From Enterococcus mediterraneensis (GTDB lineage Bacteria; Bacillota; Bacilli; Lactobacillales; Enterococcaceae): a DNA stretch of 64,000 nucleotides. Below, piece by piece: positions 37,844 to 40,743 of this stretch. The position numbers and the translations under genes are program-made. Below the pieces are notes generated by a model, which saw only the letters and a list, made by a program, of their open reading frames with translations, was not told the origin of the DNA and searched no databases. The stretch's first letter is position 1; each line of letters begins with the position of its first letter. Location: contig NZ_UWOP01000001.1 of NCBI RefSeq assembly GCF_900604485.1, positions 667,501 through 731,500 of the forward strand, in the 5' to 3' direction.

Positions 37844-38698
37844 TTAAAATCTGCCGAATCCAGAAAATTCGCCCAGAGCCAGAAAGCCCTTCGATCCATC
37901 ATCGCGAGGCTGGATTCCCCATAGATAACCATTTGCGATACAGATGTCATTGATCTTCACCTGCTGCCCTTGTTTTAATAAAGTGATGGCCGCAGCTTTA
38001 GGATCCGCGGATTTCCGCAGATAAATATCCGTCATCAAAGTGAATGTCTTCATAGTGATCGTACCTCCTTCCACAGGGCCTGCCGCGTTTTTGTCGAAAA
38101 AATAATCAAATGGCTTTCCATTCAATCGATTTAGATCCAACGCCCCATTATAGCCGGGCAATCGGCCATTGGAAGTATATTGATGAAGATCATAATTTTT
38201 TGAAGCGGTGGGATCCGCGCCTAAATAGAATCCATCATTTACGCCATATGTCGGCAGCCAGATCCCGTCAAAGGCTTTCGTGTCGATGTTCAAGCGCTGA
38301 TAAAGATGGTTAGCGATATACGCTCCGACTTTTTTCGCTCCGGATTTTTTTAGCTTTCGTCGGTAATATTCACAGCCGCTTCGCATATCTGCCATGGAGA
38401 ACTCTTCGATATCCAACCACCAAAAACTCGGTTCGAATTCCTTTCCTCTCAGCCAAAACAGCTCCGCTTCTTTTTCCATATCCTTATGATCCACACCGCG
38501 GACCCACGCGTAAACAGCGATCGGGATACCGCGTTTTTTAAATTCTCTGATATGGGTTCGATAGTGTTTGTCCTCATAAGCAGAACCGTATTGGATCCGC
38601 ACGATCACCCCTGAAATCTGTTTTGCTAACTTATCATAATCGATCTTTGAAGGCAGCTGCCATTCACTGATATCGATGATCGCTGGTTTAGGAATCAT
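37844..38698 (-). CDS. GH25 muramidase with C-terminal SH3-like domain
   Basis: A 284-residue lysozyme of glycoside hydrolase family 25 (residues 1-205). The first catalytic Asp is in IIDISEWQLPS (D9) and the acidic pair in FWWLDIEEFS (about 98-102), with a VGAYIANHLY strand. The C-terminal 65 residues (TDIYLRKSADPKAAAITLLK...) look like a bacterial SH3 wall-binding repeat. There is no signal peptide, so export would need lysis, a holin or another route. ATG 38,698 follows AGGAGGGGAAG. It is third in the DUF1659-DUF2922-GH25 operon next to a sigma factor gene. Confidence 0.9.
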   Translation of the reverse strand: MIPKPAIIDISEWQLPSKIDYDKLAKQISGVIVRIQYGSAYEDKHYRTHIREFKKRGIPIAVYAWVRGVDHKDMEKEAELFWLRGKEFEPSFWWLDIEEFSMADMRSGCEYYRRKLKKSGAKKVGAYIANHLYQRLNIDTKAFDGIWLPTYGVNDGFYLGADPTASKNYDLHQYTSNGRLPGYNGALDLNRLNGKPFDYFFDKNAAGPVEGGTITMKTFTLMTDIYLRKSADPKAAAITLLKQGQQVKINDICIANGYLWGIQPRDDGSKGFLALGEFSGFGRF

Positions 38699-38761
38699 TT
38701 CTTCCCCTCCTAAAAAAGAATGGAAAAACCGGTCACCCCGATTTTCCCATTCAAAAATCAA

Positions 38762-38974
38762 TTAAAACAATTCAGTCTCGATCACTTCGACATATTTTGC
38801 ACTGTCGACTTGAGTAAATAATGCGACACCCGCCTTTTCAAAAAGCGGCAGTTGTGTCAGTTCGTTCATCGCTGTTTGGACTTGGATCGCCGAGAGATTC
38901 TCATCAGCGAATCGCGGAATCAATTTGTGTTTTTTACCTTCTTCGTTTAAAAATGTCATGTGCAGTTTTTTCAT
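38762..38974 (-). CDS. DUF2922 family small protein
   Basis: A 70-residue protein. The pattern KLHMTFLNEEGKKHKLIPRFADENLSA followed by a short helix and AKYVEVIETELF is that of DUF2922. These proteins are nearly always encoded beside DUF1659 proteins in Firmicutes. Function unknown. ATG 38,974 follows AAGGAGGAG. It is 13 bases after the DUF1659 gene and 63 before the GH25 gene. Confidence 0.85.
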   Translation of the reverse strand: MKKLHMTFLNEEGKKHKLIPRFADENLSAIQVQTAMNELTQLPLFEKAGVALFTQVDSAKYVEVIETELF

Positions 38975-38987
38975 TTAGATCTCCTCC

Positions 38988-39194
38988 TTATTTCACGTAT
39001 TCAGTAGCAACTGTTTCAACGACACTCACCACTGCGGCAGATTGCGGCGCTAAGTTGTCAAAGACGTCGCCTAAAGCCAAGATGTCTTCTTCTGCCGGAT
39101 TTTCAACGACATTTGTCATTCGTTGTTTGGACAACCGTTCTTTCCCATCTTCTTGGTACATGATCCCTAATTCAGTCGTTACACTTGCTTTCAT
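38988..39194 (-). CDS. DUF1659 family small protein
   Basis: A 68-residue protein with the DUF1659 layout: an N-terminal strand pair, the QRMTNVVENPAEEDILALGDVFDNLAP segment and a C-terminal VVSVVETVATEYVK strand. Function unknown. ATG 39,194 follows GGGAGGTAAA. It is the first gene of the operon read from the promoter at 39,244-39,273. Confidence 0.85.
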   Translation of the reverse strand: MKASVTTELGIMYQEDGKERLSKQRMTNVVENPAEEDILALGDVFDNLAPQSAAVVSVVETVATEYVK

Positions 39195-39243
39195 ATTTTT
39201 TACCTCCCAGTTTTTGTTTTAGTAAGTTGCGCGCCTTACACCC

Positions 39244-39273
39244 TTATAACGAAATTTACAGGCAAAATGTCAA
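39244..39273 (-). promoter_or_regulatory. sigma-A-type promoter for DUF1659-DUF2922-GH25
   Basis: On the minus strand TTGACA (39,268-39,273), 18-base spacer, TTATAA (39,244-39,249). The -35 overlaps the last codons of the sigma factor gene, so the lysozyme operon has its own start besides any read-through. Confidence 0.7.
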
Positions 39274-39749
39274 ACGCTTTTTTCATTTTTTTGAAATTTT
39301 TTTCGCAACTGTTTACGATAGTGATGCCGCGTCTGTCGGCTCAATGGTTTTTCGTTTTCTTGAAGCAGTTTTAACAGCATTTTTTGTTCTTTTTGTTGAA
39401 GGGCTGCCCATAGATCCGTGAAATATTCCCGCAACTCTACAGCGATTTCTGCCGGAAGCTGTTCCAATAAAAGCTCATCTCCTGATTCTTTAGCTTGGAT
39501 TTTTCTATTTCTTCGCTGGAAGTCCCGTACATGCCAGCATAATTTTTGAAACAAGAAACCTTTGGGATACTGTTTCTCAAAAGTTTCTCGAGAAGTGAAG
39601 GGGACGATCATCTCATAGCAAAGAATCCGTAATTCTTGTAAACAATCATCATACTCAGCGTGACGTTTATAGATGCCGACTTTTGACAAGACGATCTCCA
39701 TCAACTCCTGATACTCCCGCAATAATTCTTCGATCTCTTGATTTTCCAT
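39270..39749 (-). CDS. sigma-70 family factor, SigH/ComX-like
   Basis: A 159-residue protein. Residues 30-90 fit sigma region 2: EYDDCLQELRILCYEMI (core binding) then LFQKLCWHVRDFQRRNRK (-10 recognition). Residues 105-155 form a short region 4-like HTH, LWAALQQKEQKMLLKLL then RQTRHHYRKQLRKKF. This size and divergence is typical of SigH/ComX-type competence sigma factors and related small sigmas in Lactobacillales. There is no adjacent anti-sigma gene unless the small DUF proteins act as one. ATG 39,749 is preferred (AAAGG eleven bases before). A terminator lies in its upstream leader. Confidence 0.72.
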   Translation of the reverse strand: MENQEIEELLREYQELMEIVLSKVGIYKRHAEYDDCLQELRILCYEMIVPFTSRETFEKQYPKGFLFQKLCWHVRDFQRRNRKIQAKESGDELLLEQLPAEIAVELREYFTDLWAALQQKEQKMLLKLLQENEKPLSRQTRHHYRKQLRKKFQKNEKSV

Positions 39750-39799
39750 CTCGTTCATCCTTTTTCACAATTCCGGCCGGTAACTAAAGAATAGCAAAG

Positions 39800-39840
39800 A
39801 AAAAAATCCCGCTGATCCTGCTATTTCCGCAAAATCAGCG
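39800..39840 (-). terminator. intrinsic terminator in front of the sigma factor gene
   Basis: On the minus strand CGCTGAT (39,834-39,840) pairs with ATCAGCG (39,810-39,816), then GGATTTTTTT. It lies 51-91 bases before the sigma start codon, so it is either an attenuator or a block against antisense transcripts. Confidence 0.65.
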
Positions 39841-39927
39841 CAATCTAGAAAAAAAGATTGAAAAAACTATCGTAATTATTAATGGAAGATCGTTTTACTA
39901 ATTTTAGTTATGAGGATGTGTTTAGTC

Positions 39928-40743
39928 ATGGAAAAATCAGTTGGTCACAAAAACATTGGCAAATCAGGAACTTTCGCAGCTCGAGATTTCAAAGCAAGTA
40001 TAACGGAAACAAACATACGGCAAACGACAATTTTTCATCAGAAAAATATTGATACGTTGACGTCAAAAATCGAGCCTGTCGCGGAGTTTCCCACTTACCA
40101 AACGATCTATGCATTGATCCCTGTTGAGAAGGAACATTACAGACAGTGTTTCGTTTTGACAGAGGACTTGTTTCAATGCGTGGAAAGCTGCAACTATCAG
40201 ATAATCAACTCACTTATCCAAACCCATCTTCATATCCAGCCGAAGCTGTATCGCTATGCCCTCGCGACTGTTTTTCATCACTACCATTACAAACTTTCAT
40301 GCGGATTGCCCAATTATTCGTTGATCCCTCTCGGTGCTATCAACAGCAAACCAACCATTTGGATCAATCCCGCACAAATCTCCGCCATTGAAGAAGGGGC
40401 ACTAGATACTTGCATCCATCTGCGCAATGGATTTCAGATCCGTTGCGAGCTCACGCGAAAAAGCATCCACAACAGTATGCAATTAGGTTTTATCTGCCAA
40501 GGAATCGTCAAACGCGAATGGAGTTATGACTTGCTTCACGAATACCTCCCGCTGCAAGAATACTTGCAAATACTAGGCACCAACGAGATCAATCATGTCA
40601 TCCGCAGCCTGACTATTGCCGATATCCCCGGAAAGCGCGGAGACATGATGAAAAACTATCACATAGAAAACGAATTGGAGATCATCAGAAAAATCAATGA
40701 CCGCGAAGAACGCTTAGGCAAACCAAAGGCGATCGTATGCTGA
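39928..40743 (+). CDS. ComK-like protein with N- and C-terminal extensions
   Basis: A 271-residue soluble protein. Residues about 55-195 follow the ComK pattern: YALIPVEKEHYRQCFVL, a helical middle, then NYSLIPLGAINSKPTIWINPAQI with the conserved Trp, NGFQIRCELTRKSIHNSM and a final strand. ComK is the competence transcription factor that binds AT-rich boxes. The 50-residue N-terminal and 75-residue C-terminal parts are not in ComK. The assignment rests on pattern only. Divergent from the sigma factor gene by 178 bases. The start is uncertain among 39,910, 39,916 and 39,928. Confidence 0.6.
   Translation: MEKSVGHKNIGKSGTFAARDFKASITETNIRQTTIFHQKNIDTLTSKIEPVAEFPTYQTIYALIPVEKEHYRQCFVLTEDLFQCVESCNYQIINSLIQTHLHIQPKLYRYALATVFHHYHYKLSCGLPNYSLIPLGAINSKPTIWINPAQISAIEEGALDTCIHLRNGFQIRCELTRKSIHNSMQLGFICQGIVKREWSYDLLHEYLPLQEYLQILGTNEINHVIRSLTIADIPGKRGDMMKNYHIENELEIIRKINDREERLGKPKAIVC

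Follow-up and report, generated by a model that had tools for sequence, protein, structure and literature searches.

The window considered here, 64,000 nucleotides of Enterococcus mediterraneensis (contig NZ_UWOP01000001.1, positions 667,501 to 731,500, from a 2.70 Mb genome assembled in 3 contigs), contains a locus encoding a ComK-like protein, a small sigma factor, a DUF1659 protein, a DUF2922 protein and a GH25 muramidase. Judged by its sequence, the arrangement resembles a SigS–ComK-like–SroAB circuit in altered order, together with a GH25 muramidase, since the sigma factor aligns with the SigS type, a ComK-like neighbour is found there too, and sroA and sroB are themselves DUF1659 and DUF2922 genes. 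We hold it probable (roughly 0.6) that the locus represents the staphylococcal SigS circuit in an enterococcal form, a stress sigma regulon which would include a wall hydrolase. The features concerned, numbered from the first letter of the window, are as follows (ECF, extracytoplasmic function).

39928..40743, + strand: gene encoding the ComK-family protein, divergent from its partner, the sigma gene (the open reading frame opens at 39910; 39928 is the likely start)
39773..39780, no strand assigned: CCGGCCGG, a perfect palindrome within the sigma gene's leader, from a palindrome count against shuffles
39270..39758, - strand: gene for the small ECF/SigS-like sigma factor, from family profile alignment and relatives that match Sigma70_r2
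39247..39272, - strand: predicted promoter specific to the sigma factor, TGACA-N16-CGTTA, which overlaps the end of its gene
39222..39241, - strand: inverted repeat of the leader, GTAAG-N8-CTTAC, where the transcript is predicted to start
38988..39194, - strand: DUF1659 (SroA-type) protein gene, PF07872 24.3 bits (cut-off 24.1)
38762..38974, - strand: DUF2922 (SroB-type) protein gene, PF11148 68.8 bits
38718..38752, - strand: terminator-like stem of 15 pairs between DUF2922 and GH25
37844..38698, - strand: GH25 muramidase gene, PF01183 70.7 bits (the open reading frame opens at 38761)

All five genes were found in the window by open reading frames and by Pfam and profile scans; the ComK-like gene (+) and the sigma gene (-) are divergent, and the DUF1659, DUF2922 and GH25 genes lie downstream of the sigma gene on the same strand. 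The first-pass annotation had described just such an adjoining sigma factor and ComK-like gene with the other three behind, and its genes stand, the two weak names having been secured through the Pfam scores of syntenic relatives and through profile-profile comparison. The gene order also extends beyond this strain, whereas an order confined to it would by that annotation's own criterion have refuted the proposal. In a sample of 59 genomes, our own included, for which linkage was counted by reading the ComK-like and sigma match tables jointly, a ComK-like match was present in 22 and a sigma match in 38. The sigma match lay within 1 kb of the ComK-like match in 18 of the 22 (16 divergent, 2 convergent) and within 3 kb in three more (G005, G006 and G007; G and L numbers are our handles for genomes and loci), giving 21 of 22 in total, and the two were unlinked in one (G012). 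The five genes occur together in L026 (our own), L030, L032, L033, L034 and L126 (Enterococcus sp. CU12B), the pair is convergent in the Tetragenococcus loci L121-L124, and some genomes of the same family among the 59, e.g., G011, G017, G024 and G030, have neither match.

Taken alone, the window's ComK-like protein matches Pfam ComK (PF06338) at E 0.012 and 15.8 bits, under the cut-off of 22.3. Among three distant orthologues, that of the syntenic relative L055 scores 24.9 bits and passes the cut-off, that of L053 falls 0.1 bit short of it and that of L054 has no ComK match; when the members of A2 were scanned singly, five of 12 matched at E 1 or below, the best at 0.00013. A profile of 17 ComK-like proteins (A6) found matches in 75 of the 398 genomes of the class, eight of them in the window's own order, and the three matched proteins tested against Pfam ComK all scored 89.6 to 133.9 bits. 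When A6 was aligned with a profile of eight ComK proteins from among its matches (A9), the result was 98.1%, E 7.9e-14, over 138 columns, and homology to ComK can thus be stated at the level of the family; the absence of such similarity in a profile-profile search had been set beforehand as grounds for refuting the proposal. The AlphaFold model of the protein has a predicted template modelling (pTM) score of 0.79, and a sequence search for a ComK structure found none. The window's protein shares with ComK of Bacillus and Staphylococcus this homologous core, including its W-x-N-P-like centre, whilst differing in being longer, in belonging to the Lactobacillales, in having its gene next to a sigma gene and in showing no sign of com gene control. 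A ComK-family protein is hereby placed in the Lactobacillales and coupled to a sigma factor, against two papers which, in their accessible parts, call ComK exclusive to the Bacillales (PMC1524751) and state that the Lactobacillales have no ComK homologue (PMC3364868). Additional ComK-like genes lie away from the sigma gene in L006, L010 and L003, the L010 copy adjoining a galU-like gene (by eye).

The sigma factor is small and fast-evolving. The window's protein alone has no Pfam sigma match, nor was it among the matches of a whole-genome search with a general sigma model at E up to 1. Where the helix-turn-helix is intact, orthologues match Sigma70_r2, in L049 with 25.6 bits (cut-off 24) and just under the cut-off in L053 (23.7) and L055 (21.5), Sigma70_r4 being under its cut-off in such orthologues too; among PDB entries, the family profile agrees best with 5zx2, an ECF factor that bears the name SigH (E 0.0071). 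A region 4 stretch, EIAxxxxV (residues about 133-140), is absent from the window's protein and its near relatives and kept in distant ones, and in the predicted structure region 2 is confident and region 4 has three helices with a predicted local distance difference test (pLDDT) of 71-82; on this model the window's sigma factor lacks one helix of the region 4 helix-turn-helix. The earlier label of SigH/ComX-like was right as to a sigma factor and imprecise as to its kind, because the SigH position behind rlmB and yacP (neighbours named by eye) is occupied by a separate sigma gene (L112), which rules out the identity of the two. The resemblance to the SigH/ComX competence sigmas, as far as these are described in the accessible part of PMC3364868, is that of a small, divergent sigma factor of a non-sporulating Firmicute; the window's factor differs in position, in its predicted promoter and in hhalign, where its profile reached 1.6% with the genome's own SigH-position sigma, a weaker test in that the latter is a single sequence.

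The resemblance to SigS extends to all three components. The sigma profile (A3) aligned with SigS-type sigmas (A7) at 95.3%, E 2.1e-8, over 149 columns, a relatedness that takes in regions 2 and 4. In all four SroA genomes read (L199-L202) a gene for 145-148 amino acids comes next after the SigS-type sigma gene, at a distance of no more than 4 bases, and A6 matches this gene in four staphylococcal-type genomes at E 7.2e-6 to 4.7e-4, with a similar match in a fifth (G447) in the match list only; one of the two neighbours tested scored above the Pfam ComK cut-off (26.6 bits), and A6 aligned with the neighbour profile-to-profile at 82.9%, E 9.2e-6. The staphylococcal-type SroA proteins are DUF1659 in three of three tested (32.1 to 44.1 bits), and the gene that follows sroA is DUF2922 in three of three (51.2 to 67.2 bits). 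Across the class the NCBIfam SroA model (NF049869) matched 41 of 398 genomes, 24 of them above its cut-off. Two DUF1659 proteins from relatives of the window also matched it (L009, E 0.0017; L005, E 0.0037), and those of L053, L037, L014 and L057 gave no match. These comparison genomes are presumably staphylococci, with SACOL1828 as the gene adjacent to their sigma gene; in S. aureus SACOL1828 lies 112 bp from sigS, and no homology had been found for it in 2008 according to the accessible text of PMC2585143. The accessible text of PMC13192611 gives sroAB as a direct SigS target, with SroA and SroB opposite in their effect on sigS. In L199-L202 the second gene away from the SigS-type sigma gene is, by eye, glucosaminidase-like with a membrane anchor, once more a wall hydrolase in the vicinity of the circuit.

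In comparison with the S. aureus SigS/SACOL1828/sroAB system, as described in what was accessible of these two papers, the window thus shares an ECF-type sigma factor, a DUF1659-DUF2922 target pair, an adjacent small ComK-like protein (in the staphylococcal-type genomes tested) and, by eye, a similar promoter layout, the upstream region of staphylococcal-type sroA reading TGnCC-N17-CGATA. Here, however, the target pair is often beside the sigma gene, the leader has an inverted repeat, a wall hydrolase follows the pair, the sigma factor lacks, on the model, one helix-turn-helix helix, and the partner has about 271 amino acids as against 145-148. The initial view that no described system has this composition is therefore half right: the S. 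aureus system has the same core, whereas the ComK link and the DUF names are not given in the parts of those papers that were accessible. A literature search, mostly without subscription journals and with some sources available in part, found neither a description of the circuit in the Lactobacillales nor a ComK-like partner of SigS, and a search of the same coverage found no mention of DUF2922. It is conceivable that an ECF-type stress sigma factor acquired a ComK-family partner and DUF1659-DUF2922 targets independently, with no common descent with SigS; sigma factors of such a size are quick to diverge, the agreement of the profiles could stem from a likeness general to sigma factors, and the layouts differ between the groups. 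We regard this as unlikely, as the sigma type, the ComK-family neighbour and the DUF1659-DUF2922 pair, three independent components, recur together in both groups.

Upstream of the DUF1659 gene the sequence TGACA-N16-CGTT is followed, after 5-9 bases, by TGTA(A/G)G and the inverted repeat GTAAG..CTTAC, and from the distribution of this motif-bearing promoter we infer that it is recognised by the window's sigma factor. In 44 distinct regions upstream of DUF2922 genes of the Lactobacillales, set against 200 shuffles and reversed and antisense controls, the -10-plus-leader pattern was found in 38, the -35/-10 pattern in 32 and both in 31; these are not counts of independent events, because the regions are related and the motif itself had served to retrieve some of them, at least three (L147, L149, L153). 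The shuffle means for the same three patterns were 0.8, 0.7 and 0.01 (maxima 4, 4 and 1), and the counts were 1, 2 and 0 in the reversed control and 1, 0 and 0 in the antisense control. The promoter also accompanies operons that have parted from the sigma gene, being present in all eight unlinked operons read, four at 250 to 670 kb (G001, G002, G004, G021) and four on a different contig (G008, G009, G034, G035); the G016 operon, about 20 kb from its sigma gene, has the leader and no TGACA. Among 105 genomes of the family, the long pattern gave 19 matches in 18 genomes as against 7 for the reversed control; three of these 19 matches (G061, G005, G013:C2) appear to be fortuitous. Two of the 16 copies of TGACA-N16-CGTTW in the window's own genome precede a gene in the right direction, both before DUF1659-DUF2922 pairs: that of the window and an unlinked second pair (L057/L069, C1:1227068-1227550) beside rpsF-ssb-rpsR (by eye), with no sigma gene.

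The leader repeat was tested by script, as MAFFT had left its 3' arm unaligned. A 5-base arm with a perfect partner within 24 bases was found in 20 of 29 leaders (mean 0.43 and maximum 3 in 500 shuffles), with loops of 1 to 18 bases, and in two of the 20 the arms differ in sequence and pair all the same. A markedly stable RNA stem was not confirmed, the leaders folding little better than shuffles (z -0.2 to -1.5); a DNA dyad and an RNA stem are both possible. Two sub-threshold Rfam matches were obtained, neither located at the leader. The sigma gene has a symmetric element of its own, a palindrome of at least 8 bp (core G+C at least 4) being found 5' of it in 18 of 32 distinct regions (mean 2.2 and maximum 6 in 300 shuffles). 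Its sequence varies among relatives and yet stays symmetric: CCGGCCGG, CCTCGAGG, CCGCGCGG, GACGGCCGTC, TGGCTAGCCA and CAACCGGTTG. A strict sigma-A-type promoter was sought between the sigma and ComK-like genes and found in none of 19 non-empty intergenic regions, where -10-like hexamers were seen by eye only. Upstream of the sigma gene there is also a possible attenuator, a terminator-like stem (39803-39840, -) that has 12 pairs and a T run.

The distribution of the motif bears directly on the original proposal of a module for wall opening, DNA uptake or fratricide, of which the conserved sigma/ComK-family pair and the wall hydrolase after the DUF genes are supported and the DNA uptake is unsupported. 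In a competence module the sigma factor and the ComK-like protein would switch on DNA uptake, with the muramidase opening walls or killing siblings for their DNA. The partner is a true ComK-family protein, com genes are present in the genome, and the S. aureus transformation genes need only SigH and ComK1, ComK2 acting on stress and other genes, in the accessible text of PMC10182052; ComK2 has also been described, in the part of PMC12491500 available, as repressing comG in S. aureus under strong oxygen limitation. However, the SigH position is taken by another gene, the motif is located before DUF1659 operons, and TGACA-N16-CGTT is absent upstream of comEA (L108) and comGA (L075), the only two com promoters read, so that it was rejected as a com promoter element for these two genes; their upstream regions have the -10-like elements TTTTTTACGAATCTATT and GATAGCGTATCTATAA. 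The locus is probably not a DNA-uptake switch, and we consider a competence module decidedly improbable. These findings lend no support to a direct control of DNA uptake, whilst the sigma/ComK-like pair may have an indirect role in it.

The preferred reading, an enterococcal SigS circuit, takes its output from the gene behind the DUF pair: since the operon continues to a hydrolase here and in many relatives, the output would include wall cutting or lysis. Behind DUF2922 the window carries GH25, as do relatives of genera g1, g4, g5, g10 and g15, and GH25 is also at this place in L053 (107.9 bits); Amidase_2 and LysM are found at this place in L103 (34.1 and 54.2 bits) and, by eye, a glucosaminidase-like gene in L206. 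No hydrophobic N-terminus was seen in the window's GH25 protein or in relatives whose start was inspected, and in L097 (G002) the GH25 gene is seemingly split into two open frames. The operon could alternatively be a phage lysis cassette, domesticated or in decay, whose place beside the sigma gene is accidental, given that the window's GH25 matches a phage endolysin family with 153 bits and that in G016 (L079) the pair is succeeded by an LLH holin (30.2 bits, cut-off 24.9) and, by eye, an amidase-like gene. Such an origin seems very improbable, as no PHROG match of the DUF pair falls below E 0.08, a shared promoter and leader extend across many genera, and GH25 accompanies the pair even away from the sigma gene (L081, L084, L095, L096, L098, L105).

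If the locus is an enterococcal SigS circuit, it might be expected to work as follows. Stress would raise the level of the sigma factor, and the ComK-family partner, which is paired with it across genomes, would control its synthesis or activity. The sigma factor would then direct RNA polymerase to TGACA-N16-CGTT before DUF1659-DUF2922 operons in cis and in trans, as the placing of the motif suggests. The DUF1659 and DUF2922 proteins, by family the counterparts of SroA and SroB, may feed back on the circuit, by analogy with S. aureus probably at the level of mRNA, and the peptidoglycan hydrolase, given the association of its gene with the pair, would be made for wall remodelling or lysis under stress.

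Several results weigh against the SigS reading and it should be considered with these in mind. The window's DUF1659 protein matched the SroA model at E 0.13 with 12.3 bits against a curated cut-off of 80 and is, because of this score, filed only as a member of the same DUF1659 family and not as SroA. The other of the two staphylococcal-type neighbours tested had no Pfam ComK match, the smaller ComK-like profile A4 reached 11.8% with the staphylococcal neighbour, and the partner is divergent here and on the same strand after the sigma gene in S. aureus. The sigma gene has no TGACA-N16-CGTT-type promoter before it in any of the 19 non-empty intergenic regions. In the window's own genome the 16 copies of TGACA-N16-CGTTW stand against 14 for the reversed control, which is no enrichment, and at the second DUF1659-DUF2922 pair the motif falls inside an over-long open reading frame call and the leader repeat is absent. 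No hydrolase follows the pair in some relatives, e.g., G005, G006 and G033 (by eye), and in the window the terminator-like stem separates DUF2922 from GH25, so that GH25 may be only partly co-transcribed; the number of terminator-like sites in the region (4, as against 2.9 in shuffles) is not significant.

From this comparison the gene adjoining sigS in S. aureus, so far unexplained, would seem to be related to ComK. The domains of unknown function DUF1659 and DUF2922 gain a shared promoter and a testable regulon, with a wall hydrolase among its likely outputs. A broader reading, which we put forward tentatively and as less probable than not by some distance, is that a sigma/ComK-family switch is old in the Bacilli and in the Lactobacillales drives a stress lysis cassette of SroAB-type proteins and a signal-less endolysin-like enzyme, with a holin in one genus, tuned by leader palindromes that vary in sequence and stay symmetric, the sigma factor having lost one helix of its promoter-binding helix-turn-helix; ComK for DNA uptake would then have branched from a sigma-coupled family older than itself.

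In Tetragenococcus halophilus Tet1 a second copy of the promoter plus leader (L122:2458, -) is situated in the stretch that separates the DUF operon from the sigma gene, where it precedes a toxin-antitoxin-like pair (by eye).

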